NCBI GenBank assembly: GCA_017828975.1
Contig: JAGAJN010000028.1
Coordinates: 1-64,000, forward strand
From: Oscillospiraceae bacterium
GTDB lineage: Bacteria > Bacillota > Clostridia > Oscillospirales > Ruminococcaceae
Length of the DNA: 64,000 nt
Direction of reading: 5' to 3'
Both the position numbers and the translations under genes were made by a program. Below, piece by piece: positions 3,932 through 63,598 of this stretch (its first letter is position 1; each line of letters opens with the position of its first letter). The notes beneath the pieces were generated by a model. It worked only from the letters and a program-made list of their open reading frames with translations, did no database searches and was not told where the DNA came from.

Positions 3932-3937
3932 TATCTG

Positions 3938-3964
3938 CTTGCGCTCTCAATCTTAGAGTGCTAA
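3938..3964. promoter_or_regulatory. CIRCE-like HrcA operator upstream of hsp20
   Basis: CTTGCGCTC, nine bases, then GAGTGCTAA. The right arm is a perfect CIRCE half-site and the left arm matches 6 of 9; the nine-base spacer is canonical. A second, perfect left half-site (TTAGCACTC, 3915-3923) lies 23 bases further up, inside the end of the preceding gene. The complete site at 17524 supports a HrcA regulon in this genome. Confidence 0.7.
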
Positions 3965-3992
3965 TTTTCATCATTCTTTCACAATTCTATTA

Positions 3993-4020
3993 TTGTATCG
4001 TCAAATACGGGGGATATAAT
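3993..4020 (+). promoter_or_regulatory. Candidate promoter of hsp20
   Basis: TTGTAT (3993-3998) and TATAAT (4015-4020) with a 16-base spacer. The CIRCE-like site lies about 30 bases upstream of the -35 box rather than over the start point, which is unusual; another start nearer the operator is possible. Confidence 0.5.
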
Positions 4021-4119
4021 CATAATCACAATAAAGAAAGAGAACAGGAGCTGATACCATTGAACCGAGTGAGAATTATCCCCACAAAAAAATATCATGC
4101 AAGACCGGAGGAATTATTT

Positions 4120-4536
4120 ATGATGAACATTACACCCTTTGAAAGAAATTTTAACGTTTTTGACCCCTTTGCAGATTTCGATAGATTCTATGACGGCAGA
4201 CAGATGCCTTCCATAAAGACCGATATTAAGGATAACGGCGACGCTTTCGAGCTGTCCGCAGAGCTTCCCGGCTTTAACAAGGAGGACATCTCCATCGACA
4301 TCGACAAGGACAGACTTGTCATCTCCGCCGAACATTCCGAAAATAAGGACGAAAAGGACGAGAACGGCAAGTATATCCGCAGAGAGCGTTCCTACGGCAG
4401 CTTCACAAGAAGCTTCGACATTTCCGCTGTAAACGCAGCTGCTATCTCCGCAAAATACGAAAACGGCGTCCTCACTCTGGATCTGCCGAAAAAAACTCCG
4501 GAACAGGAAGGCGCAAGACGGCTTCAGATCCAGTAA
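4120..4536 (+). CDS. Small heat-shock protein, Hsp20 family
   Basis: ATP-independent holdase chaperone of about 138 residues. The alpha-crystallin domain spans about 35-125 with AELPGFNKEDI near 48-58 and the late A-x-x-x-NGVLTLDLPK motif near 110-123. A frame open from 3958 gives a longer reading, but GGAGG at 4107-4111 selects ATG 4120 (or 4123). The CIRCE-like site upstream suggests HrcA control shared with groESL. A strong hairpin terminator follows. Confidence 0.93.
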   Translation: MMNITPFERNFNVFDPFADFDRFYDGRQMPSIKTDIKDNGDAFELSAELPGFNKEDISIDIDKDRLVISAEHSENKDEKDENGKYIRRERSYGSFTRSFDISAVNAAAISAKYENGVLTLDLPKKTPEQEGARRLQIQ

Positions 4537-48072: not shown

Positions 48073-49377
48073 GTGAAGATGAAAATTATTGCGTTGGCTG
48101 CACTGCTTTGCACCGCCGTATCTCTGTCTGCCTGTTCGGGCAATGAAAACGTTGCCGTGACCGAAACAACGGCAGAAGCAAGAGCCGCAGAGGTGACGGA
48201 AACGTCCTCCGAAGCATCGTCCGAGACAGTTGTGGGTGCGCAGCCGGCACTTATGAGCGACGAACCTGTCGAGGAAAACGAGCCGTTCACATCATATACC
48301 TTTACCTATTCCGATTCACGGGACAATTACCTTGTGACCCTGTCCCCGGGCGAATACAGGGACATCTACAACAACGGCGCCCAGATGCTGCCCATTTCCG
48401 TGACGTTCACCTGTGAGGATAAGAATTTTGCCTCACAGACCGTTGAAGCGACCGCACCCGAGGGATATTACATCGGTCTGCCATACAGCGCAAACGGAGC
48501 ATACACCGCCTGCACTATTATAAAGAATGACATAGATTTCACACCCGTCCCCGACCTGATACAGCTGGATTTCTGGCTGTACGATTATGATGACATTGCC
48601 GAGGAGCAGCGTCCGGCCGTCGTTTCCAAATTCTATGCGGTACACGAGGGCAAGCTGTCCGAGGTCAAGATGATAGACAATACCAAGCAGGAGGGCGAGC
48701 CGCTCCCCTACTGTCCCGTGGATATGCTCCATACCGAGCCGCTGAAGCTGATGGAAGTGCCCGTCCCCGAGGTGACAAAGGACGGGGTTTCCCTGCAAAT
48801 TTACACCTACACCTACGACATTGCCGAAAACACTCTGACAAAAAATGTAGAGCCGCCCGTTCAGGACAATATGCTCTATTTCGGATATTACTATTATTAC
48901 AGGGCAATGGAAATAGCTTACTATATGAATCAGACCACTCTGCCCGTTGAGGATTATGAGAATTATGTCGAAACCGAGATAGCAAACGGCGACAGCACCT
49001 ATACTGCAATGTATTTTCCCATTTCCGACCCAAGATTTTCCACCTATGAGGAGCTGTATAATTATCTGCTGACCATATTCAATCAGAGAATAGCGGACGA
49101 CATGCTTGCGGCTGCGCCTATGCAGTATAAGGATTTTGACGGAAAGCTTTACGGTATTCTGGGCGACGGAGGATATAACATTAATCTCGGTCCCGTCACC
49201 TTTACGGGATATGAGATCTCCGAGGACGGACAGTCCATCATCTTCCACACCCGCCAGCTTACCAGAGATGACAACGGCTTTGAAACAGGCTACACCGACG
49301 GCGGAGATTTCGTCCTGACCTCCAATCCCGACAAAAACGGTTATATAATAACAAAATTCAGGTACCCTTACAGCTGA
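48073..49377 (+). CDS. Secreted lipoprotein, DUF-like C-terminal domain
   Basis: A 434-residue exported protein I cannot assign. The signal peptide IIALAALLCTAVSLSAC ends in a lipobox (cysteine at residue 21), followed by a linker rich in Thr, Glu, Ala and Ser to about 75. The last 110 residues (YNYLLTIFNQRIADD, ...DGKLYGILGDGG, FTGYEISEDGQSIIFHTRQ) resemble the small immunoglobulin-like or IseA-like secreted domains of Clostridia. GTG 48073 is six bases after AAGGGGGTGA; ATG 48079 is the alternative. Similar build to the 29075-30247 product. Confidence 0.75.
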   Translation: MKMKIIALAALLCTAVSLSACSGNENVAVTETTAEARAAEVTETSSEASSETVVGAQPALMSDEPVEENEPFTSYTFTYSDSRDNYLVTLSPGEYRDIYNNGAQMLPISVTFTCEDKNFASQTVEATAPEGYYIGLPYSANGAYTACTIIKNDIDFTPVPDLIQLDFWLYDYDDIAEEQRPAVVSKFYAVHEGKLSEVKMIDNTKQEGEPLPYCPVDMLHTEPLKLMEVPVPEVTKDGVSLQIYTYTYDIAENTLTKNVEPPVQDNMLYFGYYYYYRAMEIAYYMNQTTLPVEDYENYVETEIANGDSTYTAMYFPISDPRFSTYEELYNYLLTIFNQRIADDMLAAAPMQYKDFDGKLYGILGDGGYNINLGPVTFTGYEISEDGQSIIFHTRQLTRDDNGFETGYTDGGDFVLTSNPDKNGYIITKFRYPYS

Positions 49378-49630: not shown

Positions 49631-52547
49631 TTATTGAAGCACTAGTTCAAGTGTTTCGACAACCTCGTTCATATTTATGGGCTTGGAGATGAAACCGTTC
49701 ATGCCACATTCCTTGGCGGTTCGGCGGTCCTCGTCAAAGGCGTTTGCGGTCATAGCAACAATGGGGACACAGGCAAGCGCCTTGTTTTCCAGCAGCCTTA
49801 TCTGCCTTGTGGCTTCGTAACCGTCCATAACGGGCATCTGAATGTCCATCAGCACAAGGTCAAGATCACCCGGCTCGGAAGATGAAACCTTGTCCACCGC
49901 CTCCTGACCGTTTTCGGCTGTATCAACAATAAATCCGTACTCATTAAGTATCTCAAAGGCTATCTCACGGTTAAGCTCGTTATCCTCAACCAGCAGCAGA
50001 TGCTTGCCCTTGAAATTATCCGTTTTGTCGGTAACGGGCAGCACGGCTTCATTCTTCTCCGCCTTCTGCTGACCGAGAGCACTTAGCAGCGACTCCCTAA
50101 GGTCGGACATAAACATGGGCTTTGAACAGAACGCAGTCACTCCCGCAGCCCTTGCTTCCACCTCAATATCCGACCAGTCATACGCCGTAAGGATAATTAT
50201 GGGCGTATGGTCACCGAGAGAACGTATCTGCCTTGTGACCTCGATACCGTTCATATCGGGCAAACGCCAGTCGATGATGTAGGCATGGAAAGCGGTCGTT
50301 GACCTCAATAGCCTGCTTTGCCCTGAGAACCGCCTCTCTTCCCGAAACAGTCCACTCCGACCGCATGCCCACACGAAGCAGCATCTTTGTAACGCTGTCG
50401 CAGGTGTTGAAATCGTCATCGACAACCAGAGCCTTAAGTCCCTCAAGCTCCTTTACCTTTTCAACGCTCCTGTGCTCCGACTGCAAGCGCATTTTAATTC
50501 GGATAATGAACTCCGTGCCCTTGCCCTGTTCGGTGTTGACTTCAATGGTACCGCCCATCATATCGACAATGTTCTTTGCAATGGACATACCCAGCCCCGT
50601 GCCCTGTATCCTGCTGACGGTGGATGTGCGCTCACGTTCAAAGGGGTTGAAGATGCGCTCTGCGAAATCCCTGCTCATACCGATGCCCGTGTCCTTTACA
50701 CGGAACTCATAAAGTCCCTTTCCTTCCGCAGAATTATGCAGCTGCGAAACACGAACCGAAACCGTTCCGCCCGGAGCGGTAAACTTTATGGCATTGGACA
50801 GCAGGTTCAAAAGCACCTGATTAAGGCGTATCTTGTCGCAGTAAACGTCCTCGTCAACAACATCCAGGGTGTCCATATAAAGCTCCAGCTGCTTTGCGTG
50901 TATCTGACCGCTGACGATGGTTTTCAGGTCGTGGAGAATGTCCGAAAGATTTACCTCTGTTTCTTCAAGGTGTATCTTTCCGCTTTCGATACGGCTCATA
51001 TCAAGCACATCGTTTATAAGCGAAAGCAGATGATTGCTCGACGAAAGTATCTTGGACAGATAATCCTTTACCTTCTCCTCATTGCCCACATTTGCGCTTG
51101 CCAGCGTGGTAAATCCGATAATAGCATTCATAGGCGTGCGTATGTCGTGGGACATATTGGAAAGGAAGGTGCTCTTTGCCCTGTTTGCGCTCTGTGCGGC
51201 GTTTACCGCATCTTCAAGCGCATGATTTATCTTCTTTTCCTTAGTTCGGTCGGACATTACCATGATATACTTTTTCTCGCCGTTGATGTCGCTGCAAAGG
51301 GCGATAACGTGGAACCAGCGCACCTCGCCCGTTTTCCGATGAACATACTCTCTGTCCCATTCGCCCTGTTCTCCGGGGGAAATTTCGGGCAGCTTATCAA
51401 GCACACGGACAGTATCATCACTTTTGACCAGCCTGTCCAGCGCATGGATATTTGCCGACACCTGCTTTTCGGGGATCCCCACAAGTTTTTCAATGTTCGG
51501 GCTGATATAGTCAACATGCATATCCTCCGCATTGAGCATAAGGAAAACGTCGTCAACATTAACGGACAGCTTGGAAAACAGCTCATCACGATAGAGTATC
51601 TCCGTATCCTTCTTTTTCAGCTTCAGCTGATTTTGCCTGATAACTACGGCTATCATAAGCAGCGCAAGGCTTACGGTGATACCCGCCGCCAGCATAAGCG
51701 TGCTTGACTGGAGTCTGTTCATGCTCTCATTTACGACAGCTGTGGGCACTATGCCGACGACCGTCCAGTCCTCGAAATCCGCAGATTCATATATGAAATA
51801 ATAGCTTGTTTCTCCCAAGGTGACAACAGCCGCTCCCGAATTTCCCTGACAGAGGTCCTGACGGAATCTTTCCATTTGGGCACTGTCCATATCCGAGTAC
51901 TTTTTCAGCATTGCGATAAGGTTATAGATGTCCTGCTGCTTGTTTGCGGCGTTATCCACCACAACACGTCCGTCGGAATGGATAACATAGCTGCTTGAAT
52001 GTCCGTCAAAGGCGGATATTTTCAGCGCATTTACCATGTCGGAATTGTTGAAGCTTACGGCTATTGCCTCATAGTCAAAGCCCTTGTATGTACCCTTTAC
52101 GGCGGGGCTGACAAACACCATTATCCGGGGCTTTCCGGGCACTACGGAATTTACTGCCATGTCCTTGCCGCGGAGGATAAGCTCGGGCAGCTCGTCCTTC
52201 AAATCAAGGTAGCCCGTTTCATCGCTTACCGTCCGATAATTTCCTTCCCGTGAAATGAAATAGAAGTCGGTAAAGCCTGTTTTCTCCTTTGCATGGGTTA
52301 TGAAAGCATCTATCTCCTTTTCGTCCGAAACGTCCTGAAGATAATCCGCCCAGAGGTGCATATTTGTCCAGTTTCTGCCGACAAGATTATTCAGAGAACG
52401 GTTTGCCTGATGATATATCTCCGTAAGATGGGAGATACTTTCAGAATATATGGTCTGCGACACAAAGGAGTAATAACGGACGCTGACCGCAGCAATTCCT
52501 ATCAAAAATATAACGGCAGCAATGACTGCGACTATCCGTTTTTTCAT
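49631..52547 (-). pseudogene. Hybrid histidine kinase HK1 (dCache-PAS-HisKA-HATPase-REC-REC), frameshifted
   Basis: Reads as one hybrid kinase of about 970 residues broken by one extra base. The first frame (50211-52547) has a membrane helix at 5-22, a dCache-like extracytoplasmic domain, a second helix near 285-305, a PAS domain, H box FLSNMSHDIRTPMNAII, N box NLLSNAIKF and G boxes DTGIGM and GTGLGM, then half a receiver. The second frame (to 49631) continues the receiver with [14 protein letters not shown] and adds a full second receiver ([34 protein letters not shown]). The extra C is in a CC pair at about 50287-50288. A true mutation, a sequencing error and recoding all remain possible. 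Confidence 0.85.
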
Positions 52548-52566
52548 TGTAAAGCTCTCCTTTTCA

Positions 52567-52809
52567 TCAGATTTTCGGTGCGGACATTACCGTATAAGCC
52601 TTGCTGTCATCAAGAGTATCTCCGTTTATTGTAATATCTCCAAGCGTATAGGTGCCGTCGCCGTTATCCGAAACGGTATATTCAATGCCGCTTGTGACGG
52701 GCATAAGATTTTTGTGGCGGATAGGGTTTGAACCGTCCACCTCCGCGCACATGGGCAGCCGGCGCACTTCACCGTTCGGCTCTCTGTTGTTATCTATGTA
52801 GCTGTCGCA
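52567..52809 (-). pseudogene. Remnant of a solute-binding lipoprotein gene (SBP1)
   Basis: The frame reads SYIDNNREPNGEVRRLPMCAEVDG and then jumps to SNPIRHKNLMPVTSGIEYTV, matching two places about 390 residues apart in the SBP3 product. It ends early with a stop, so the last 50 or so residues are missing too. The N-terminal third is absent: homology stops exactly at the edge of the 103-bp palindromic element. The internal joint lies on a GGACGG repeated at both sites in the relatives. It precedes HK1 as SBP3 precedes HK2. Confidence 0.8.
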
Positions 52810-52912
52810 ATACCAATAACCAATAAAAGTCTAGATAAAAAACCTGCGCAAAAACCATATACGCAAGTTTTTGCTTGATTTTTTTATTCACTTTTTAATT
52901 GGTTCTTAGTAT
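52810..52912. repeat. 103-bp palindromic element, copy 2
   Basis: ATACCAATAACCAAT at one end and the complement of ATACTAAGAACCAAT at the other; same length as copies 1 and 3 and the same inner layout (CCTGCGCAAAAACCATA, TACGCAAG), but more diverged. It lies exactly between the SBP1 remnant and the end of SBP2. Confidence 0.8.
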
Positions 52913-54742
52913 AATATAATTTGTGGGTTCTGCCGGACTTCCGCCGTCCTTTATATACGCCGTCCACGCCGGCTTTACTCTGTCGTCCTCTTTCACAAAC
53001 ACACGGCTTTCATCTTCGAGAAATGTGCTGAAATATGACAATATATCAAGGCAGGTGACCTTGAAGGTATCCTCATCTCCGACCTCCCTGCCGTCCCTCA
53101 GAACACGCATAAGAGTGTATTTACCGTCTGCCTCCCGAACCTCGATCGATATTCCGCTGACTGTTGGAAGAGAACCTCTGTTAAAAGGCGTGATTCCGCC
53201 CTCACAGCCCTCCACATACGCCTTTACAAATTCTTTCAGCTGTGCGCCTGTCATTTCGGACTGCCATGCGCAGAGAGGATTTGGCGTTACCATATTTCCG
53301 ACCATCTTCTCGGTGTAATCTGCCTTGAAAACGGAACCCGTAAAGCTGTATGCGGGTGCGACAAGCACATCGCTGCCGTAAAATTCCCGCAGAGTATTTG
53401 CCATGACCGAATACGCTTCGTTTCCGCCGTTTTTGTGGAATATGTTTGAATAGTCACGGTCAACAGTCAGAATCGCTTCTTCGGTATTGTCCTTTGGCTG
53501 CTTAAGCTGAGAATCAAAGGCTTCGTATGCCTGTTTTGCGTCATATTCGCCCTGTATCATCTTGGAAACAACGTCCTTTGACGCCGCAAAAAAGTCATTT
53601 GAAGCAATGCGGATATACAGATGGTTCTGTTCGATAAGCGTCTTCAAATTTTCGAGATAGGGAGAAAGCTGAAGCTCAACATTCTGACTGTATGTAATAA
53701 CATCTTCGCCCTTTGCCAGAGTGTTCTGACCCTCCTCGGAAAGCATAACGTTCAGCACCTTCAACGCCTTTTCCTGACGTGCTTTGTCATTTTCCAGGTC
53801 CTTGTTGAGGGCAATCTGAAAAGAGGGATAGGTAAGCAGCCACTGTTCGCCGTTCTGTCCGAAATAGGGGAGAAATACCGCATCAACGCCCATATTTTGG
53901 AATGCTACCGTATTTGAGCCGCCCGAACGGATAACAGCAGCTTCGCCATTTGTAAACATTTCTATAACGGGATTATAGGAGAATTCAACATCACCCGGGT
54001 GAATATCAGCGTCCTCTATAAACTTTTCCATGCGCTCAAAGGCAGTATGCCAAACAGTGTCGTCCAGCCCCGTTATTTCCATATTCGACGGGTCCTCATA
54101 GCCGCTTCGCCAGATACAGCCTTCCATAGAGGTTATCTCGGGAATGGAAAGCCCCTGGAGCACCTCCATGCAGGTATAGTCATATGAAAAATCGGCAGCA
54201 AAGCCCCGAACACCGACCTTTTCAAATTCTTGGCAGGCGTAAACAAAGCTGTCGTAATCCGTAGGCAGCGGAATATCGTATTCTTCAAAAACAGACCTGT
54301 TTGCCACAAGACCGTCCACCTCGCCGCACATGGGCAGCCAGTTCACCGTGCCGTCGGGATTGGTGAAGCTGCCGATATAGGCTTCATATATGGCACCCGC
54401 CTCCTCGGTGGCAGACAGGTCCATCAGCTGATCCTTAAGCGCCGCCGCATCATGCAGGGAAAATCTGCGTGATGTGATAATATCGGGGAGCTTGCCGTTT
54501 TCATTCATGAATTTATAGAAATCAAGGTCATTGTTTCCCACAACAAACTGAATGTTGACATCGGGCAGCTGTGACTGTATATACGGAGCAAAGCTTTCAT
54601 ACATTGCGGTGCTCCATAAATAAACGGAGATAGTTTCCCCGTCCTCCCTTGAATTGTCCGATGTGCAGCCCGAAAGAACCGACGCTGCCATCATTGCCGC
54701 CGCAGCCAGAGCCGCCGACCTCATCACAGCCTTTTTATCCAT
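52895..54742 (-). CDS. SBP2: solute-binding lipoprotein with 5'-nucleotidase C-terminal-like domain
   Basis: A 615-residue membrane-anchored binding protein. Signal peptide with lipobox LSGC (cysteine near 26); residues 35-420 look like a family 1 (sugar-type) extracellular solute-binding domain (SVYLWSTAMYESF, ITSRRFSLHDAAAL, WLPMCGEVDGLVANRS). The C-terminal 190 residues (SDVLVAPAYSFTGSVFKADYT, EMTGAQLKEFVKAYVEG, PTVSGISIEV) resemble the substrate-binding domain of 5'-nucleotidases. No permease or ATPase gene is near, so a sensing role next to HK2 is more likely than transport; that is inference. It follows HK2 by 38 bases. Confidence 0.8.
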   Translation of the reverse strand: MDKKAVMRSAALAAAAMMAASVLSGCTSDNSREDGETISVYLWSTAMYESFAPYIQSQLPDVNIQFVVGNNDLDFYKFMNENGKLPDIITSRRFSLHDAAALKDQLMDLSATEEAGAIYEAYIGSFTNPDGTVNWLPMCGEVDGLVANRSVFEEYDIPLPTDYDSFVYACQEFEKVGVRGFAADFSYDYTCMEVLQGLSIPEITSMEGCIWRSGYEDPSNMEITGLDDTVWHTAFERMEKFIEDADIHPGDVEFSYNPVIEMFTNGEAAVIRSGGSNTVAFQNMGVDAVFLPYFGQNGEQWLLTYPSFQIALNKDLENDKARQEKALKVLNVMLSEEGQNTLAKGEDVITYSQNVELQLSPYLENLKTLIEQNHLYIRIASNDFFAASKDVVSKMIQGEYDAKQAYEAFDSQLKQPKDNTEEAILTVDRDYSNIFHKNGGNEAYSVMANTLREFYGSDVLVAPAYSFTGSVFKADYTEKMVGNMVTPNPLCAWQSEMTGAQLKEFVKAYVEGCEGGITPFNRGSLPTVSGISIEVREADGKYTLMRVLRDGREVGDEDTFKVTCLDILSYFSTFLEDESRVFVKEDDRVKPAWTAYIKDGGSPAEPTNYIILRTN

Positions 54743-54780
54743 CTATATGACCATTCCTTTCATCACTTTTACACAAAACA

Positions 54781-57282
54781 CTACCTATGCACCTGCCGTG
54801 CAATAGTCCCGATGACCTCCTGAATAACAATAGGCTTTGCAAGATGACCGTTCATTCCTGCGTCCAGAGAAGCCTGAACGTCCTCGGCAAAGGCGTTGGC
54901 GGTCAGCGCAATAATGGGGATATTCCGGGCATCGGGGCGTCCCTGCATTGAACGTATCGCCTTTGTTGCTTCATAGCCGTTCATTTCGGGCATCATAATA
55001 TCCATAAGTATCATATCAAAGGCTTCGGGGGGATTTTCCTCAAATAGCTTTACCGTTTCTTTTCCGTCGGCGGCTCTTGTCACCTTTATGCCAAGCTCCT
55101 CCAGCTGAATAACGGCAATTTCGGCATTCAGGTCGTTGTCCTCTGCCAGCAGTATCTTTACGCCGTTCAGGTCAACATTTGCAATGGGCATAGCCTTTTC
55201 ACAGACATTGCTTTTATCGGTAATTTCCAGCGGAAGCTCAACGGTAAATACAGAACCCGCTCCCTTCCTGCTCTCCACCAGAATGCTGCCGCCCATCAGG
55301 TCAACATAATGCTTGGAGATAGCCATTCCCAGACCTGTACCCTTATACTGCGTCCTTGCGCCCGTTTCCTCCTGCGAGAACTCGTCAAAGATATGCTCCA
55401 CAAACTCCTCGCTCATACCGACGCCCGTATCGGCAATGCGATAGCACACGTTCATATGCCTGTCATCGCAGCCTTGACGGTAGCTTGTTTCAAAGGTGAT
55501 GCTGCCGCCGTCCTCGGTAAATTTCACAGCGTTTCCGAGGATATTTACCAGCACCTCACGGATACGCACGGAGTCGGCAAGCACATAGGGCGTTTCGGGG
55601 ACCTCCGCCTTTGTGTCAAAGGTGATATTTCTGTCGGTCAGGAAGCCGTGGACGATGTTCGCGACCATATCGTTGACCGACGTAATATCGACGGGAACAG
55701 GCTCGAATTTCATCTTTCCGCTCTCGATACGGCTGATGTCCAGCACGTCGTTGATAAGCGTCAGCAGATGCTCGGAGCTTTTGCTTATCTTTTCAAGGCA
55801 GCTTTTTACCTCAGGCTCGGGGTCCTGCTTCAGGGCGATTCCCGTAAAGCCCATGATAGCATTCATAGGCGTGCGAATGTCATGGGACATATTGTTCAGG
55901 AAGGTAGTCTTTGCAAGGCTTGCGTTCTGCGCCGTATGCACAGCCTCCTCCAGCTTCTGATTTATCTTCTTGTCACTTGTTCGGTCGGACAGGTCAAGTA
56001 TGTACTTCTTCGCCCCCCGTATATCGCTGCAAAATGCGATAACATGGAACCAGCGCAGCTCGCCGCTCGCCTGATGGATATACTCCCTGTCCCATTCCCT
56101 CTGTTTTCCGGGAATAATGTCCGAAAGCTGGTCAAGGACACCGGCGGCTTCATCTTCCTTCACCAGCCGTCCCAGCGAATAAACGTCTTTGCGGACCTCT
56201 GCCTCCGTAATTCCCAGAAGCTTTTCAATGTTCGGGCTGACATATTCCACCCGATGGTCCTCCGCATTTATCATCATAAACACATCGTCCACATTGATGG
56301 ACAGCTTTGAGAACAATTCATCACGGGCAACAAGCTCATGGTCCTTTTCCGCAAGCATCTGCCTGTTTCGCTGAATTACCAGCATAAGGAGCATAACGGC
56401 AAAGGCTATGGTTATCACCGACACTACCGCCATAGTCGCAGACTGCAGCTTGTTCATGCTGGCATTGACTATATCTGTGGGAACGATACCCAGCACCATC
56501 CAGTCCTGAAAGCCTGCGGATTCATAGACCAGATAATATTTCCTGCCGTTTACGTCAAACAGCATCTGACCCGAATTCCCCGCAAGAAAATCCGTATGCA
56601 GCTTGGAAATGTCCTCGTCCGAAAGTCTTTCCGACCTTTCCAGAAATGCGAAAATATTGTGTATATCCTCCATATCCTCGCTTCCGTTGTCAACGACCAC
56701 TCTTCCGTCGGGCAGTACCGCATAGGTGCTTGCCTGCCCGTTAAAGGCGGAAATTTTCAGCGCCTCCACCAGGTCGGAATTGTTAAAGGTAATAGCGATA
56801 GCCTCATACTCAAAGCCCTTGTAGCTGCACAGCTCGCACGGAGCGGCAAACACCATTATTTCGGGCTTGTCGGGGACAACGGAGTTTGCAACGATAGGCT
56901 GATCGTCAAGTATCAGCGCAGGCAGCTTGTCCCGCAGATTAAGGTAGCCCCTCTGCCCGTCGATAGAGAGATATTCGCCGTTTCGGGAAATAAAATAGAA
57001 ATCGGTAAATCGGTTTACTTCCTTTGCCTCGGCGACATATTCGATTATATCCGCTTCACTTTCCGTATTTTCCAGATAGGGCGTCCACATCTGCATACGG
57101 CTCCGGTTTACGGAAACAAGGTTGGAAAGAGCCATATTTGCCTGACGGAATATCTCCACAAGGTGGGCAGTGCTTTCCTCGTAAATGGTCTGTGAAACAA
57201 ATCCGAAATATTCGGCACCCGCAAAGATAACGCCCGCTGCAAATATCAGCGCAAGCAGAGCGGCAAGAAGCTTCTTTTTCAC
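54781..57282 (-). CDS. Hybrid histidine kinase HK2 (dCache-PAS-HisKA-HATPase-REC)
   Basis: Intact hybrid kinase of 833 residues. A membrane helix at about 5-25, a dCache-like sensor to about 275 (FTDFYFISRNGEYL, AIAITFNNSDLVEALKIS), a second helix near 285-305, PAS near 320-430, H box FLNNMSHDIRTPMNAIM, N box NILGNAVKF, G boxes DTGVGM and GTGLGMAIS, and one receiver with ILLAEDNDLN, MILMDIMMPEMNG and LAKPI. It begins at GTG behind AAAGGAGGG, 24 bases after SBP3. The sensor half is clearly paralogous to HK1. It needs an HPt or regulator partner; the nearest HPt is on the 61.8-kb gene. Confidence 0.92.
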   Translation of the reverse strand: MKKKLLAALLALIFAAGVIFAGAEYFGFVSQTIYEESTAHLVEIFRQANMALSNLVSVNRSRMQMWTPYLENTESEADIIEYVAEAKEVNRFTDFYFISRNGEYLSIDGQRGYLNLRDKLPALILDDQPIVANSVVPDKPEIMVFAAPCELCSYKGFEYEAIAITFNNSDLVEALKISAFNGQASTYAVLPDGRVVVDNGSEDMEDIHNIFAFLERSERLSDEDISKLHTDFLAGNSGQMLFDVNGRKYYLVYESAGFQDWMVLGIVPTDIVNASMNKLQSATMAVVSVITIAFAVMLLMLVIQRNRQMLAEKDHELVARDELFSKLSINVDDVFMMINAEDHRVEYVSPNIEKLLGITEAEVRKDVYSLGRLVKEDEAAGVLDQLSDIIPGKQREWDREYIHQASGELRWFHVIAFCSDIRGAKKYILDLSDRTSDKKINQKLEEAVHTAQNASLAKTTFLNNMSHDIRTPMNAIMGFTGIALKQDPEPEVKSCLEKISKSSEHLLTLINDVLDISRIESGKMKFEPVPVDITSVNDMVANIVHGFLTDRNITFDTKAEVPETPYVLADSVRIREVLVNILGNAVKFTEDGGSITFETSYRQGCDDRHMNVCYRIADTGVGMSEEFVEHIFDEFSQEETGARTQYKGTGLGMAISKHYVDLMGGSILVESRKGAGSVFTVELPLEITDKSNVCEKAMPIANVDLNGVKILLAEDNDLNAEIAVIQLEELGIKVTRAADGKETVKLFEENPPEAFDMILMDIMMPEMNGYEATKAIRSMQGRPDARNIPIIALTANAFAEDVQASLDAGMNGHLAKPIVIQEVIGTIARQVHR

Positions 57283-57306
57283 GGCACTGCCCTCCTTTCG
57301 TCATTA

Positions 57307-59199
57307 TTATCCCTGAATAATAGTCACATACTCCGTAGGCGGCAGGAACTGCTTTGTTTCGGCAAGCGCCTCGCAGATATATTCCTGACTGGTGAAATCA
57401 TTCGTATAATAATCCTCACGCTTTGCCTTGATGTCCTCGGGCATGGGACAGTTGCAGAAGGTGGGGTGTTCAAGATATGTGTCCGCACCGATAAGCAGAA
57501 CGGTGTAAACGGCATCGTCCTCAAGGGGCTGACCGTCTACGGTAATTTCCCCGAGAGTGAATTTTCCCCGCTCCGTTTCGGTAACGGTGTATTCAAGACC
57601 GCTTGTAACGGGCATCTGGTTGCGGTGATGGATAGGATTGGAGCCGTCCTCCTTGATGTTTACAAGCCAGTCCATTATTCTGCGTATCTCCGCTCCCGTG
57701 TACTCTCCTCGGTACATAGCATTTCGGAAGGTCATTATCCACTTTACCTGCTGAGTGGTGTAATCTCCCTCATATATGGACGAGCTTGCAACGCTTGCAT
57801 ATCCGATAGCTATACTGTCGTTATTTTTATACCGCAGAGTGTTCATCAGCGAGGAAGCCGCCTGACTTCCGTGAACGCCGAAGTCATTGGAATATGCCGT
57901 TGTCTGGGTGAAAAGAACTTCCTCCGATTCGGGATCCTTGTAATCGGTTATCTGCGCATTGAAGGCATCGTAAGCGGTCTTTGCGTCATATTCGCCTGTC
58001 ATCATCTTGTGTCCCACGTCCTGAGAAATACCGAACACCTCGGTAGAAGCAAGGCGCATATACAGGTGGTTTCTGCCTATGCAGTCCTGAACATAGTCAA
58101 GAGCGGGAGAGGGGGTTATCTTAACCTCCTTGTTGTAGGACAGCACGGAGGTGCCTGCCGCAACATGCTTCTGACCCTCCTCGCTGAATATCGCCATAAG
58201 AACATCATTTACAGCCGCCTTCTTTTCATTGTCCTCTTCGACCCTATGGGAAACTGCCAGCTGACACATAGGATAGGTAAGCACCCAGTTATCATCGGAG
58301 CTTTCGCCGAAATAGGGGAGGATAACGCAGTTCATATCCCGCTCAGCCTTGATACTGTCGCAGATCGCTGCGGTGTTTCGTATCATAGCGGTCTGTCCGT
58401 TAAAGAAGGGCTCCATAACAGCACTGAATTGAAGCTCCTCATCGCCCTTTTCAAAGCGAACGTCCTTCAAAAACTGCTCGTACTTTTCAAAGACCTTTGG
58501 CCATACGGTATTGTCAAGACCTACCTGATCATCCGCAGTTTCGCTTTCATACGACATACGCCACTTTGTCCCCTCAAGGCTCATAAGCTCAGGGATAGCG
58601 CAGCCCTGCATGGTTTCCAGACAGGTGTAATCATAATACCAGTCAGCCTGAAAGCCCTTTATGCCCAGCTGCTCAAAAGCGTCGATCGCTGACAAAAACT
58701 CGGCATAATTTGTGGGCAGGGGGATATTATGCTCATCAAAAAGGTCCTTGTTAGCCACGATACAATCGACCTCTGCGCACATAGGCAGCCAGCGGATAGC
58801 ACCGTTTTCCTCACGGTTCACCTCCAGATAGCTGCTGTAAAATGTGCCTGCGACCTCGGTAGTACTGAGGTCCATAAGATAGTCGGCAAGAGGGGCTGCG
58901 TCGTTCAGGGAAAATCTGCGGCAGGTGATAATGTCGGGCATCTCCTCGCCTCGTGCAAGCAGGTCCTTGTAATATTCCATAGTGTTGTAGCTCTGCACAA
59001 AGGTAAAGTCAATATCGGGGAATTTCTGCTCCAGCCAGGGGGACAGCTCCTTGAACATTGACCTGTCCCACATATACATACTGATAGAAATTCTGCCGTC
59101 ATCTTTGCTCTGAGCCGTGTTTTTATCGGCACAGCCCGCAAGCATTCCCGCCGTCACAGAAGCGGAAAGCAGCAGACAGATAAGCTTTGTTTTTGTCAT
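57307..59199 (-). CDS. SBP3: solute-binding lipoprotein with 5'-nucleotidase C-terminal-like domain
   Basis: Paralogue of SBP2, 630 residues. Lipobox LAGC with cysteine near 22; binding domain with SMYMWDRSMFKELSPWL, IITCRRFSLNDAAPL and WLPMCAEVDCIVANK. The C-terminal part holds YTGAEIRRIMDWLVN, MPVTSGLEYTV and YTVLLIGADTYL, again like the 5'-nucleotidase C-terminal domain, here without any catalytic nucleotidase domain. Placed 20 bases after HK3 and 24 before HK2, so it is co-transcribed with both. Confidence 0.82.
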   Translation of the reverse strand: MTKTKLICLLLSASVTAGMLAGCADKNTAQSKDDGRISISMYMWDRSMFKELSPWLEQKFPDIDFTFVQSYNTMEYYKDLLARGEEMPDIITCRRFSLNDAAPLADYLMDLSTTEVAGTFYSSYLEVNREENGAIRWLPMCAEVDCIVANKDLFDEHNIPLPTNYAEFLSAIDAFEQLGIKGFQADWYYDYTCLETMQGCAIPELMSLEGTKWRMSYESETADDQVGLDNTVWPKVFEKYEQFLKDVRFEKGDEELQFSAVMEPFFNGQTAMIRNTAAICDSIKAERDMNCVILPYFGESSDDNWVLTYPMCQLAVSHRVEEDNEKKAAVNDVLMAIFSEEGQKHVAAGTSVLSYNKEVKITPSPALDYVQDCIGRNHLYMRLASTEVFGISQDVGHKMMTGEYDAKTAYDAFNAQITDYKDPESEEVLFTQTTAYSNDFGVHGSQAASSLMNTLRYKNNDSIAIGYASVASSSIYEGDYTTQQVKWIMTFRNAMYRGEYTGAEIRRIMDWLVNIKEDGSNPIHHRNQMPVTSGLEYTVTETERGKFTLGEITVDGQPLEDDAVYTVLLIGADTYLEHPTFCNCPMPEDIKAKREDYYTNDFTSQEYICEALAETKQFLPPTEYVTIIQG

Positions 59200-59219
59200 T
59201 TACATTCTCCTTGTGAAAT

Positions 59220-60840
59220 TTATTTAACTATATATTTGCGAAGCGTTTTTGCCAGGACCTTTAGGTCAAGGGGCTTGGCGATATGCTCGTTCATGCCCAC
59301 TGTCCTTGCTGCCTGAACGTCCTCCGCAAATGCGTTTGCCGTCATAGCGATAATTGGTATGCGCTTGCAGTAGGCTCTGTCCATTGCACGGATAACTCTT
59401 GCTGCGTCGTAGCCGTTCATTCTCGGCATCTGAATGTCCATGAAGATCATATCGTAATATCCGTCAGCGCATTTCGACATCATCTCCACAGCCTCCGCAC
59501 CGTCGCAGGCACGTTCAACGGCAAGTCCCGTAGTACCGAAAATTTCCGTGGCTATCTCCGCATTAAGCTCGTTGTCCTCGGCAAGAAGTATCCTCCTGCC
59601 CGACAGCTTCATATCAGCCAAAACGTCAAGAGGTGCCGTCTGCTCGGGCTGCTCCTCACCCGCCTCAAGGGAGTTAAAGGTCTTTGCCAGCCTTGAACGG
59701 AACAGCGGCTTGCTGATAAATGCGTTTGCGCCTGCCGCCCTTGCCTCCTGCTCAATGTCCGACCAATCGTAGGCGGAAATGATAATGATAGGCACCTCAT
59801 CTCCGACAGCCTTCCTGATAGCCCTTGTCGTGGCGATACCGTCCATTTCGGGCATTTTCCAGTCGATTATGCAGGCGTAATAGTCCCGGTTTTTCTGATG
59901 ACGAACGGTGCAGTATTCCACCGCCTCCGCCCCCGTGGAAACACCGTCGGGCTTCATTCCAAGCTCCTCCAGAATGTCACAGCAGGATTCAAGGCTCATT
60001 TGGTCATCGTCAGCCACAAGCACATTAAGGTCGGCAAATTTCCCCCGATCTATCTCGGTGCTGTCCTGCAGCTTCAGATACATGGTCACCGTAAAGCGGG
60101 AACCTACATTCAGCTTACTTTCCACCTTAATGTCACCGCCCATCATGCGCACAATATTTCGGCTGATAGGCATGCCAAGCCCCGTTCCCTGGATTTTGTT
60201 CACCCTGCCGTCAACAGCCCGTGAGAACGGCTCAAATATTTGGGAAAGATACTCCTCGCTCATGCCGATGCCGTTGTCCTCAAATATGAACTCATAGCAG
60301 CCCACCTTTTCCTGTGCCGACGGCTTTTCCGTGATTGAAAACCGTATTTTCCCCCCGTCGGGCGTGTACTTGACAGCATTGCTCATAAGGTTTGTGAACA
60401 CCTTCTGTATCCGCAGACTGTCCCCGATAACATTCTCGTGTATAACGCCCGAAATGTTTACGGAAAGCTCGTGATGATGCTTGTTTATCTGTGCGCAGGT
60501 CATGGTAAGCAGATTATCCACCAGATTTGAAAGATTGAATTCCTCCTCGGTAAGGTCCACCTTTCCCGATTCGATCTTGCTCATATCCAGGACTTCATTT
60601 ATAAGGCTGAGCATATGCTTGCTCGCCTGTGAGATCTTCTGTAAGCAGTCCCGTACACGTTCGCTGTCGTCCGAATGAGCGGCGGCAATTGCGGTCATGC
60701 CGATAATTCCGTTCATAGCTGCCTGCTTCCGACAATATTTTATGTATAGCCTGACCGTCCTTGGGATCGTTCAGATGGTCCCGAAGGAAATTTCTGATAG
60801 TCTGTTCACGGTCTGATGTTTCTTTATTCAAGCGGCTCAT
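59220..60840 (-). pseudogene. Hybrid kinase HK3 (GAF...HATPase-REC-REC) with internal deletion
   Basis: The original start (ATG 60840 behind GGAGGTGG) opens RNFLRDHLNDPKDGQAIHKI, the usual lead-in to a GAF domain, and reaches SEAGSY. There the sequence jumps, out of frame, to MNGIIGM, the part just after the histidine box. The GAF domain and the phospho-accepting histidine are gone. The rest (to 59220, 498 codons) is intact: N box NLMSNAVKY, G boxes DNGIGM and GTGLGM, two receivers with CIIDWKMPEMDG and MIFMDIQMPRMNG. An internal start at 60716 could still yield a histidine-less protein, but its ribosome site is poor. Confidence 0.82.
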
Positions 60841-61156: not shown

Positions 61157-61692
61157 TATCACTATGTAGACAAAAACATCAAAATAATTTACATCATTTC
61201 ACCAAATTCCATTCAACAGCCACTCTAACAGATCATTAACTATTTTCCCTCGGTATTCAATTTTTCTCATTCCACTAAAATGTAAAGCAGGGTAAAGAGG
61301 GTGGGGTGAAAGGGAAGGGGTTTGCAAAGGGGGAACCGTTAGGGGCGGGGGAAACTCCCTGCTTTGCGTTAGGGTTTGCTGTGTCCCTATGCATTTTTGC
61401 ATTGCCCATATAGGTTCCCCCTTTGCGGGAGAGCCACAACAGAAACAAAGGTCACAAAGGGGGTGAGAGAAAAGAAAGTGGAGCAAAAAAATGCAAATTA
61501 CCCAATACTCACAACAGAAATATGCTTGCAAAAATAGTCTATATGCTGATAAAAGATTAGTATTACAGCACCCCGCCAACATTTCGCTGTACCTCTCATT
61601 AAACTCAATGTTCGTTTTTGAACAGCAGGTTACGATCTATGCTTTCAAATGTAAATTTTCCTGTAATTGTTTGCCACATTTGCAGAGAAAAA

Positions 61693-61721
61693 TTGACATT
61701 TTTCGACGCAGCTGATATAAT
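61693..61721 (+). promoter_or_regulatory. Promoter of the HD-GYP gene
   Basis: TTGACA (61693-61698), 17 bases, TATAAT (61716-61721): perfect consensus, 77 bases before the start codon. Confidence 0.92.
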
Positions 61722-61797
61722 AAATAATAACCCGCCGTTTTTGAGGGTTTATCCCTCATTTCGGAAGAACTTTTTAAGGTACCTAAGGGAGGATGCT

Positions 61798-63333
61798 ATG
61801 GGAGAACATTCTTTGATAAAAAACAGAGTGCTAATTGTTGACGACTGCGAAACCAACAGAGCCATGCTGGTGGAAATACTAAAGGATGACTACGAAATTA
61901 TCGAAGCATCGGGCGGCGAGCATGCCATTGAGATACTGCAAAGAGAAGCGGGAAGCATTTCATTGGTGCTGCTGGACGTTGTTATGCCCGATACGGACGG
62001 TTACGATGTCCTTGTGCAGATGAACAGCCTCGGTATAATCGAAGATGTCCCCGTAATTATGATTTCCGCAGAAAGCGCCCCGGGATTTATCACAAAGGCA
62101 TACGACCTCGGCGCTGCGGATTATGTGAGCCGTCCCTTTGAATCCACCGTTGTTCAGCGGCGTGTAAAGAATACCATAGCATTATACGCAAAGCAGAGAA
62201 AGCTTCTGGATATTGTCGCAGACCAGATATATGAAAAGGAAAAGAACAGCAATATGATGATCTCTATCCTCAGTCATATTGTGGAATTCCGAAACGGCGA
62301 GAGCGGTACCCATACTATACATATAAACATCATCACCGAGCTTCTGCTGAAGCAGCTTGTGAAGAAGGACAAGCGGTATGCAATGTCCACGTCGGATATA
62401 CGCCTGATAAGCACCGCCTCCTCCCTGCACGACATCGGAAAAATAGCTATCCCCGACGAGATACTCAACAAGCCCGGCAGATTTACTCCCAAGGAATATG
62501 AGATAATGAAGACCCACTCGGAAATAGGTGCGTCAATGCTGAAAAATCTTACCGAGTATCAGAACGAGCCGCTGCTTAAAGCATCCTATGAGATATGCCG
62601 CTGGCACCACGAAAGATATGACGGAAAGGGCTATCCCGACGGTCTTAAAGGCGACGAGATACCTATCTCCGCACAGATAGTTTCCATTGCCGACGTGTAT
62701 GATGCCCTTACCGGCGAACGCTGCTACAAGAAGGCATATTCCCACGAAAAGGCGATAGAAATGATATGCGGCGGATAGTGCGGCACCTTCAACCCCATGC
62801 TTCTGGAATGTCTGCTTGATGTAAGCGGCAAGCTGGAAAAGGAGCTTAAAGAAAACTCACCCGGACTTAAAAACAAAAGAGAAATACAGGAAATGACCGA
62901 TGACATACTTAACGGCAGCGACCAGTCCGCCGTTGGAACCGTAAAGGAGGACGTTTCCGCCAAGGAAACAAAGAATATGGAACTTTCATCTTTAAAACAG
63001 ATCGGAATAAATACCGACAGCGCAATTGAAAGATTTATGGGCAATGAATCCCTGTATGCAAAGATGCTGAAAAAATTTCTCGGTGAACCTACATTTGCAA
63101 AGCTCACCGCAGCCGTTGCGGAGGGTAACGGTCAGGCGGCGCTGGAAGCGTCCCATACCCTTAAAGGCGTCTGCGGAAATCTGTCCATCGAAAGCCTTTT
63201 TGACCTTTTTGCGGAACAGGTCGTTCTTATGAGAGCGGACAAGTGGGACGAGGCTTATGCCATGATGCCCGAAATTACCGAAAAATACGAGCTGGTGACC
63301 GATACGCTCAGAAACTGTCTTGATATGCAGTAA
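61798..63333 (+). pseudogene. REC-HD-GYP-HPt phosphorelay protein with in-frame TAG
   Basis: Original product about 511 residues. The receiver (RVLIVDDCETNRAML, LVLLDVVMPDTDGYD, VSRPFE) is followed by an HD-GYP phosphodiesterase domain with SSLHDIGKIAIPDEIL and RWHHERYDGKGYPDGLKGDE, which have all the usual metal and GYP residues and would hydrolyse cyclic di-GMP or a related dinucleotide. After ICGG a TAG (62776-62778) interrupts; the same frame goes on with CGTFNPMLLECLL, the normal end of the domain, and then an HPt-like domain with ASHTLKGVCGNL. One base change (GAG to TAG) explains it. The 326-residue product up to the stop may still be an active enzyme, cut from the HPt. ATG 61798 follows GGGAGGATGCT. 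Confidence 0.85.
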
Positions 63334-63352: not shown

Positions 63353-63598
63353 ATGGCAAATGCAAAAAGACTGCTTATCGTGGACGATTCGGAAATCGAC
63401 AGAAGCATACTCAGAAACATTCTAAGCAAGTGCTTTGAGATAACAGAGGTGGAAAACGGTTACGCCGCACTGGAGCTTATCACCAAAAACAGGATAAAGA
63501 TAGACGGCGTTCTTCTGGATATTTCCATGCCCGTTCTCGACGGCTTCAACGTCCTTGACATTATGAGCGAAAACGGCATAAATACTCAGCTACTATAA
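63353..63598 (+). CDS. Truncated single-domain response regulator
   Basis: An 81-residue receiver fragment 19 bases after the HPt part, with its own TGGAGG site. LLIVDDSEIDRSIL and GVLLDISMPVLDGFN give the acidic pocket and phosphorylation site, but the product ends at NGINTQLL, before the conserved threonine and lysine strands. A terminator follows within 40 bases. Probably the scar of a longer receiver; a functional phosphate sink is unlikely. Confidence 0.7.
   Translation: MANAKRLLIVDDSEIDRSILRNILSKCFEITEVENGYAALELITKNRIKIDGVLLDISMPVLDGFNVLDIMSENGINTQLL

Follow-up and report, generated by a model that had tools for sequence, protein, structure and literature searches.

Lipoproteins joining a solute-binding fold to a 5'-nucleotidase C-terminal domain are paired with hybrid kinases in Clostridia and probably serve as their co-sensors

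Why would genes for binding-protein lipoproteins alternate with genes for sensor kinases, with no transporter gene beside them? The question is raised by a 64,000-base stretch of DNA from an Oscillospiraceae bacterium (hereafter the window; bases 1-64000 of the 67,638-base contig JAGAJN010000028.1, draft assembly GCA_017828975.1 in 39 contigs), in which hybrid-kinase genes (HK1 to HK3) and genes for solute-binding protein (SBP) lipoproteins (SBP1 to SBP3) stand on the minus strand in the transcription order HK3, SBP3, HK2, SBP2, SBP1 remnant, HK1. An earlier note, made from the window's letters, had described this order, gaps of about 20-40 bases and the lack of permease and ATPase genes, and the coordinates (HK3-SBP3 20, SBP3-HK2 24 and HK2-SBP2 38 bases) and our scans agree with it: neither an ATP-binding cassette (ABC) permease, by profile (E 1e-5, open reading frames [ORFs] of at least 80 residues), nor an ABC ATPase, by motif scan, was found in the window and the contig end.

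We consider it likely that the array encodes SBP-assisted sensor kinases with a phosphorelay, that is, a three-component system of the CuaDSR/LuxPQ kind in which the lipoprotein architecture is new. This reading draws on domain content, modelled folds, a conserved pairing, the rarity of permeases nearby, co-divergence, and relay genes beside some relatives.

Domain architecture of the lipoproteins

SBP2 and SBP3 are homologs (39% identical over 572 aligned positions, E 2e-142). In Pfam searches at E 0.1, SBP2 matched SBP_bac_1 (Table 1) and SBP_bac_8 and not 5_nucleotid_C; SBP3 matched 5_nucleotid_C (E 3.7e-11, 43.8 bits against a cut-off of 23.6) and no SBP family. Since neither lipoprotein shows both domains by Pfam alone, the two domains are joined here by homology, fold and relatives. 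On that footing, the lipoproteins are a family-1 SBP fused to a 5'-nucleotidase C-terminal domain, with the catalytic half absent. The N-terminal half has a two-lobed SBP fold in the structural model and matches the family-1 (SBP_bac_1/8) profile. Among 46 family lipoproteins scanned with Pfam at E 0.01, 5_nucleotid_C (PF02872) was matched in 34, and metallophosphatase, the catalytic 5'-nucleotidase half, was not among the matches. The family profile matches bacterial 5'-nucleotidases, including UshA, within its positions 422-572, and the C-terminal domain of a sister clade (clade B, below) matches UshA and others. A phmmer search of the PDB at E 1 with just the C-terminal part of SBP3 (212 residues) came back empty, whereas the family profile and the clade B domain did retrieve PDB entries; the whole-model VIA structural list covers the SBP half only.

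The best explanation of the C-terminal domain, judging from these sequence matches, is that it descends from the half of a 5'-nucleotidase that binds the nucleotide. The earlier note's claim of a 5'-nucleotidase C-like domain without its catalytic half is upheld by the family profile, the 46-member scan and the clade B matches. The profile search and structure prediction proposed there found both SBP and 5_nucleotid_C profiles and an N-terminal half folded as an SBP, and the C-terminal domain did not prove to be an ordinary part of a known transporter family. A further relative of SBP3 (36.8%) lies at 2450-4174 of MT838770.1, a 4,894-base unannotated faecal record labelled Bacteriophage sp., which is possibly a mislabelled bacterial contig. 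A phage origin, which the label would suggest, was not adopted as a reading.

Pairing with kinases and not with permeases

To see how general the arrangement is, we surveyed the best 80 of 183 loci with lipoprotein relatives, a set with many metagenome-assembled genomes and close relatives. A kinase core lies directly downstream of the lipoprotein in 60 of these loci (62 pairs, spaced by -26 to +321 nt, with a 4-base overlap in 10), and in L082 a kinase N-terminus directly follows the lipoprotein and runs to the contig end. Ten of the 80 loci are uninformative, ending within about 550 bases, so that with L082 counted, a kinase follows directly in 61 of 70 informative loci. In L036 the kinase comes after one regulator gene, and L078 holds a kinase remnant. 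Among the species that carry the pair are Faecalibacterium prausnitzii, Gemmiger formicilis, Coprococcus catus, Blautia schinkii, Fusicatenibacter saccharivorans and Agathobaculum butyriciproducens.

A second set of 25 further loci, some of which repeat members of the first, came from searches of other genomes. A kinase is adjacent in 20 of the 21 loci whose lipoprotein ORF reaches 600 residues (the exception is L017), and a permease in none of the 21; the remaining four hold shorter or split SBPs, among them L157 with two permeases. At family level (E 1e-20) 11 of 197 genomes were matched, at order level (E 1e-25) at least 19 of 394 and at phylum level (E 1e-25) at least 3 of 398, the window's own genome included each time; the family and order counts take in some ordinary SBPs (L023, L157 and L161). 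Seven of the ten stretches from the family search went into the 25-locus set, the other three being L016, a same-genus locus taken up below, L021, a 239-residue lipoprotein fragment without a kinase, and L023, a 507-residue SBP with two permeases.

Could the lipoproteins nevertheless be ordinary SBPs of ABC importers that use a distant permease, the kinases regulating uptake and sensing the ligand directly through their dCache domains? Orphan SBPs can use distant permeases, the SBP half is that of a normal oligosaccharide-type SBP, and 17 permease matches occur elsewhere in the genome. Within 1.5 kb of the lipoprotein, a permease was found in 2 of the 80 loci (L062 and L065, about 1 kb upstream), which fits this alternative, but not in the other 78; 73 of the 80 span at least 1 kb upstream, and the profile retrieved the expected permeases in L023 and L157. 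As a control, we took 26 other SBP_bac_1 genes of eight genomes (30 of 47 matches had loci, and 4 of the 30 belonged to the lipoprotein family): within about 1.5 kb, a permease accompanies 19 of them, a kinase 2, and neither gene 5, a comparison that undercounts kinases, given that 2 of the 4 family loci were scored with a kinase and that L189, one of the other two, is known to have its kinase further on. Neighbourhood and control together make an ordinary transporter SBP unlikely, and we regard the importer alternative as a whole as improbable.

In Clostridia, many from the gut, the lipoprotein gene usually directly precedes a hybrid-kinase gene and is not beside a transporter. The pairing recurs in most relatives and is thus more than chance, and a lipoprotein that is encoded before a kinase, and not beside a transporter, most likely tells that kinase what is outside the cell. 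The pairing without nearby ABC genes that the earlier note had seen in one array holds across several named genera; the survey of the pair with and without ABC genes that it called for returned the counts above, and the lipoproteins were not found always with permeases and away from kinases.

Co-divergence of lipoprotein and sensor domain

The model of the HK2 sensor shows a dCache domain, in which two PAS-like parts form an outer module carried by a long helix. Pairwise distances of lipoproteins, sensors and kinase cores were compared in 60 pairs (54 of the 62 pairs of the 80-locus set passing length cuts, 2 from the window and 4 others) and in reduced sets of 57 pairs, without clade B, and 54 pairs, without the six pairs with other sensors or from clade B. 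Lipoprotein distance correlates with sensor distance at r 0.86, 0.81 and 0.81 in the 60, 57 and 54 pairs, respectively, and with kinase-core distance at 0.55, 0.50 and 0.48. The corresponding partial correlations are 0.79, 0.75 and 0.75 for the sensor and 0.20, 0.20 and 0.11 for the core, and the partial r was reached by none of 999 shuffles in the 60- and 57-pair sets. That lipoprotein divergence follows the sensor domain also speaks against the lipoproteins being SBPs of a distant importer. The N-terminal SBP half taken alone correlates with the sensor at r 0.88 and 0.83 (partial 0.66 and 0.57), a sign that the part of the lipoprotein matched to the sensor may be the SBP half.

Loss of the nucleotide pocket and the question of the ligand

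The C-terminal domain raises a further alternative, namely that the lipoproteins, those of the window's clade included, are nucleotide or nucleoside receptors acting through this domain. Roles in nucleotide binding of CD73 residues Asn390, Arg395, Phe417, Phe500 and Asp506 are given in the available text of PMC8677862; we infer their placement on the lipoproteins from motifs and an alignment to 2z1a (in the Arg354 column the alignment is unreliable). In clade B, whose nine lipoproteins belong to other genomes within the order (L022, L024, L025, L148-L152 and L156), all five positions are kept in 9 of 9, both aromatics as Tyr, and the four members scanned singly each matched both SBP_bac_8 and 5_nucleotid_C (E 1e-29 to 1.2e-32). 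Clade A, to which the window belongs (94 sequences, 86 of them from the 80-locus set), has Arg395 in 0 of 94, Asn390 in 2, both clamp aromatics in 0 and Asp506 in 6; the two with Asn390 are distant members (L073 62-1897 and L084 2345-4198). The Ser and Gly of the VSG motif are retained in 92 and 91 of the 94. Within the window, SBP2 keeps none of the five residues and SBP3 only a Phe at the Phe417 place. Four more lipoproteins outside the 94 (group C) have Asn at the Asn390 place in two cases and Arg at Arg395 in none; one of them, L154 5846-7675, resembles clade A.

As read from the alignment, then, the nucleotide pocket is lost in the window's clade and kept in its sister clade. The clade B residues and the single Phe of SBP3 are what a nucleotide receptor would predict, but with Arg395, Asn390 and the clamp aromatics gone to this extent from clade A, we think it very improbable that the window's lipoproteins are receptors of this kind. 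A nucleotide ligand, which the earlier note had allowed for the window's own lipoproteins, is made unlikely by the loss of these residues.

Loss of the pocket in clade A, with retention in clade B, suggests a dead-nucleotidase receptor. We tentatively offer a broader scheme, which we find possible but would not call probable: the receptor family would combine a catalytically dead 5'-nucleotidase domain with a sugar-type SBP, the ancestral form (clade B) reading extracellular nucleotides or nucleosides plus a second ligand and reporting both to a dCache hybrid kinase as a two-input sensor, and in clade A (the window together with several gut commensals that are common) the scaffold would have been retained and the nucleotide site lost, with duplication giving rise to tandem units of two receptors such as SBP2-SBP1-HK1.

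Tandem units and the integrity of the array

Two consecutive lipoprotein ORFs were flagged in 16 of the 80 loci, some of them split copies of one gene (e.g., L057, L060 and L074). Tandem units are present in 12 of the 16 (L059, L062, L063, L065, L066, L069, L071, L072, L073, L075, L076 and L091), where the first lipoprotein is SBP2-like (60-74% identical, 79% in L059) and the second is 50-53% identical to SBP3. Transporter genes lie just upstream of two of these tandem lipoprotein-kinase units (L065 1202-2807 and L062 3182-4045). In the window, the SBP2-HK1 interval of 347 bases contains the SBP1 remnant, which matches the full-length L059 lipoprotein at residues 117-143 (74%) and 511-566 (73%), the middle being lost. 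Because the remnant matches the second-type lipoprotein and the HK1 sensor is 82% identical to the L059 kinase, SBP2-SBP1-HK1 is probably a former tandem two-lipoprotein unit.

The earlier note's array of kinases and lipoproteins stands as an arrangement and is corrected as to intactness (Table 1). HK3 begins inside the DHp helix, without a sensor domain, and HK1 is split by a frame change located in its first receiver domain. With the middle of SBP1 lost as well, SBP3-HK2 is the only unit intact in this assembly. In the 20 kb examined of the same-genus locus L016, SBP3-HK2 is present (93% and 90% identical to the window), the HK3 counterpart is a 114-residue piece truncated differently from the window's HK3, and SBP2-SBP1-HK1 was not found, which marks the latter unit as variable.

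These breaks, found in two of the three kinases and in one of the three lipoproteins, would be expected if the window's array were a decaying relic with little function, as would a same-genus HK3 copy that is also truncated, and in another way. Against such decay, SBP3-HK2 is intact and closely similar in the same-genus genome, and the breaks could be assembly errors of a draft genome in 39 contigs. We therefore give little credence to the array being a relic.

Table 1. Features of the array and of the divergent neighbouring genes in the window.
Feature	Position	Strand	Description	Matches and remarks
HK3	59220-60716	-	Partial HisKA-HATPase-REC-REC kinase, sensor missing	Pfam HisKA from profile position 17, HATPase_c, Response_reg in 2 stretches
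SBP3	57307-59199	-	Lipoprotein, family-1 solute-binding fold and degenerate 5'-nucleotidase C domain	
HK2	54781-57282	-	Intact dCache-PAS-HisKA-HATPase-REC hybrid kinase	Pfam HisKA, HATPase_c, Response_reg
SBP2	52895-54742	-	Intact lipoprotein, same family as SBP3	Pfam SBP_bac_1 E 4e-11
SBP1 remnant	about 52567-52830	-	87-codon open stretch, two distant parts of a third lipoprotein	
HK1, first part	50211-52547	-	dCache-PAS-HisKA-HATPase	Pfam dCache_1 E 4.5e-10 (39.9 bits, cut-off 45), HisKA, HATPase_c
HK1, continued in other frame	49631-50446	-	Receiver domains	Pfam Response_reg E 4.6e-43, 2 stretches
REC-HD-GYP response regulator	61618-62778	+	Divergent neighbour, candidate output	Pfam Response_reg E 6e-21, HD_5 E 8.3e-31
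Free Hpt protein	62797-63333	+	Candidate phosphotransfer step	Pfam Hpt E 0.00032 (21.3 bits, below cut-off 24.6)
Receiver-domain fragment	63353-63598	+	81 residues, from the ORF list	Longer HD-GYP-protein-like ORF at the same place in L016

Relay genes

A free Hpt protein is encoded in 16 of the 80 loci and a regulator with helix-turn-helix (HTH), His-less DHp and receiver (REC) parts, HTH-(His-less DHp)-REC, in 16, with both in L038, L043, L071 and L072; the two profiles were each built from 8 of these loci, and that for Hpt also included the window's Hpt. Directly beside the pair (less than 100 bases away on the same strand) are the Hpt gene in 10 loci and the HTH-REC gene in 8. Pfam confirmed four Hpt and four HTH-REC proteins, HTH_26 being above cut-off in three of the latter. 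The window's Hpt is homologous to the Hpt proteins encoded in the operons (E 2.9e-39, with the profile that included it) and, among nine Hpt matches in the genome, the sole one in an ORF of fewer than 700 residues. Its gene and that of REC-HD-GYP lie on the opposite strand, 0.8-2.5 kb from the array. No Hpt domain was found in HK1 (both pieces), HK2 or HK3 by Pfam at E 0.1. By gene content, hybrid kinases without an Hpt of their own and a free Hpt nearby are what a predicted phosphorelay with a separate Hpt consists of.

The regulators in L030 (6013-6894) and 15 other loci start with a Cro/C1-type HTH, continue with a pair of DHp-like helices that lacks the phospho-accepting His, and end in a receiver. 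Profile comparison aligns these helices with the DHp of the kinases (hhalign probability 68, E 4.9e-5; hmmsearch E 4e-6 to 2e-5 in 5 of 8), the His being replaced by Arg, Lys or Gln, and the protein looks like a kinase turned transcription factor. Genes for GGDEF(-EAL) or HD-GYP proteins (by motif) precede the lipoprotein gene by 13-41 bases in L039, L055, L064, L067 and L104, and in L055, REC, EAL and GGDEF were confirmed by Pfam.

A proposed mechanism and the points against it

For the ligand class, the SBP-sensor contact, the direction of switching and the order of the relay, we infer the following scheme. The lipoprotein would be anchored outside the membrane, its family-1 SBP half binding a small ligand, in the window's clade most likely an oligosaccharide. 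Binding would alter the contact of the lipoprotein with the dCache sensor of the next-encoded kinase and so switch autophosphorylation. Phosphate would then be handed on by the kinase, first to the receiver domain that it carries itself, next to the free Hpt and last to a response regulator. In the window, the last two are probably the Hpt and REC-HD-GYP proteins of Table 1, the latter acting in breakdown of cyclic di-GMP (c-di-GMP), and in some relatives, the output may be the HTH-(His-less DHp)-REC or a REC-EAL-GGDEF protein.

Several observations weigh against the lipoproteins being co-sensors of these kinases in this way. Neighbours are not always partners: according to PMC11113362, no binding was seen between AgtS or AruS of P. 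aeruginosa and SBPs encoded nearby. There is no kinase in 7 of the 70 informative loci (L032, L051, L079, L081, L085, L086 and L095). The two permeases noted above lie 1,008 (L062) and 896 (L065) bases upstream of the lipoproteins, and in L065 an ABC-ATPase-like ORF (by eye) stands between permease and lipoproteins, ending 153 bases before them. Co-divergence, the sole and indirect evidence that the SBP binds the outer domain of the kinase and alters its activity with ligand, partly reflects shared descent, which inflates r; the kinase core is the internal control for it. Given the N-terminal half, the C-terminal half of the lipoprotein correlates negatively (-0.23 and -0.26); this makes docking by way of the nucleotidase domain less likely, and on this half-by-half comparison that mode of docking was dropped. 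No relay gene was seen in most loci, and the window genome has no HTH-REC regulator, all 37 profile matches falling in the receiver-domain part. HD-GYP genes are near 5 and GGDEF genes near 10 of the 80 loci by motif scan, counts that have no background rate beside them; with these numbers, a fixed c-di-GMP output is not supported in general and is kept as the likely local output.

Comparison with known systems

SBP-assisted sensing by co-sensor lipoproteins would have precedents. LuxP-LuxQ of Vibrio resembles the window's pair in joining an SBP to a hybrid kinase whose outer domain is of the tandem-PAS (dCache-like) type, and HK2 matches the LuxQ model over the kinase part (E 1.8e-82, 277.6 bits, cut-off 1200). 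Unlike the window's lipoproteins, LuxP, which binds autoinducer 2, is a periplasmic SBP that has one domain, is not lipidated and belongs to a different family. XylFII-LytS of Clostridium beijerinckii likewise couples a sensing SBP to a kinase in Clostridia but differs in its SBP and kinase families, in having no hybrid receiver and in having no fused domain. UshA and CD73, 5'-nucleotidases of the kind from which the C-terminal domain would have come, differ in turn from the lipoproteins, which have no metallophosphatase match and, in clade A, no pocket.

The closest likeness is to CuaDSR, the cellobiose three-component system of Ruminiclostridium cellulolyticum, as described in the available text of PMC10384115, where the XylFII-LytS complex is also named. 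There, a family-1 SBP lipoprotein dedicated to sensing, CuaD, is encoded beside the kinase gene and binds the extracytosolic part of the kinase CuaS. In contrast to the window's lipoproteins, CuaD has 410 residues when mature, with no 5'-nucleotidase C domain mentioned in that text; CuaS, in contrast to HK2, is a 627-residue HAMP kinase whose outer part has no predicted domain, and CuaR, a YesN/AraC type regulator, controls an uptake operon, which also differs from the window.

The earlier note's premise that binding proteins can act as co-sensors of kinases is well founded, SBP-assisted kinases being established in PMC10384115 and PMC11113362; in the latter, 10 of 11 characterised SBP-kinase couples are encoded next to or very near each other. 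Its remark that it knew of no described system with this pairing needs qualifying: SBP-kinase three-component systems are known, in Clostridia too (CuaDSR, PMC10384115), and what is new is the fusion lipoprotein together with the hybrid kinase and the relay genes. An SBP-5'-nucleotidase C fusion beside a kinase was not named in the titles and abstract openings found by our literature searches; as far as that literature goes, the lipoprotein architecture, the dead nucleotidase domain, the wide hybrid-kinase pairing and the relay set are new. The lipoproteins would provide a probable input for orphan hybrid kinases of common gut bacteria (Faecalibacterium, Gemmiger, Blautia, Coprococcus and Agathobaculum), with relay partners in some relatives. 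They suggest that the substrate-binding half of an enzyme was reused as part of a receptor, and their architecture offers a way to tell sensing SBPs from transport SBPs.

Other genes near the array and its relatives

Between the array and ribosomal protein genes, the window encodes a lipoprotein at 48073-49377 (plus strand) that weakly resembles IseA (E 0.00016, below cut-off) and is 85% identical in L016. Adjoining the window's Hpt operon, at L003 3687-7145 (contig 63686-67144), is a 1152-residue hybrid kinase with another N-terminal domain and, by eye, four similar repeated segments. A second kind of pairing occurs in the same neighbourhoods as the lipoprotein-kinase pairs, in which a small SBP-type lipoprotein directly precedes another hybrid kinase (L102 3988-8830, L104 2492-6962 and L018 14238-17634; Pfam SBP_bac_3 at E 2.5e-24 in L102, by eye in L104 and L018). 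In Agathobaculum (L103 12027-13901), the same sensor family is fused to a GGDEF domain, just after an SBP-kinase pair.

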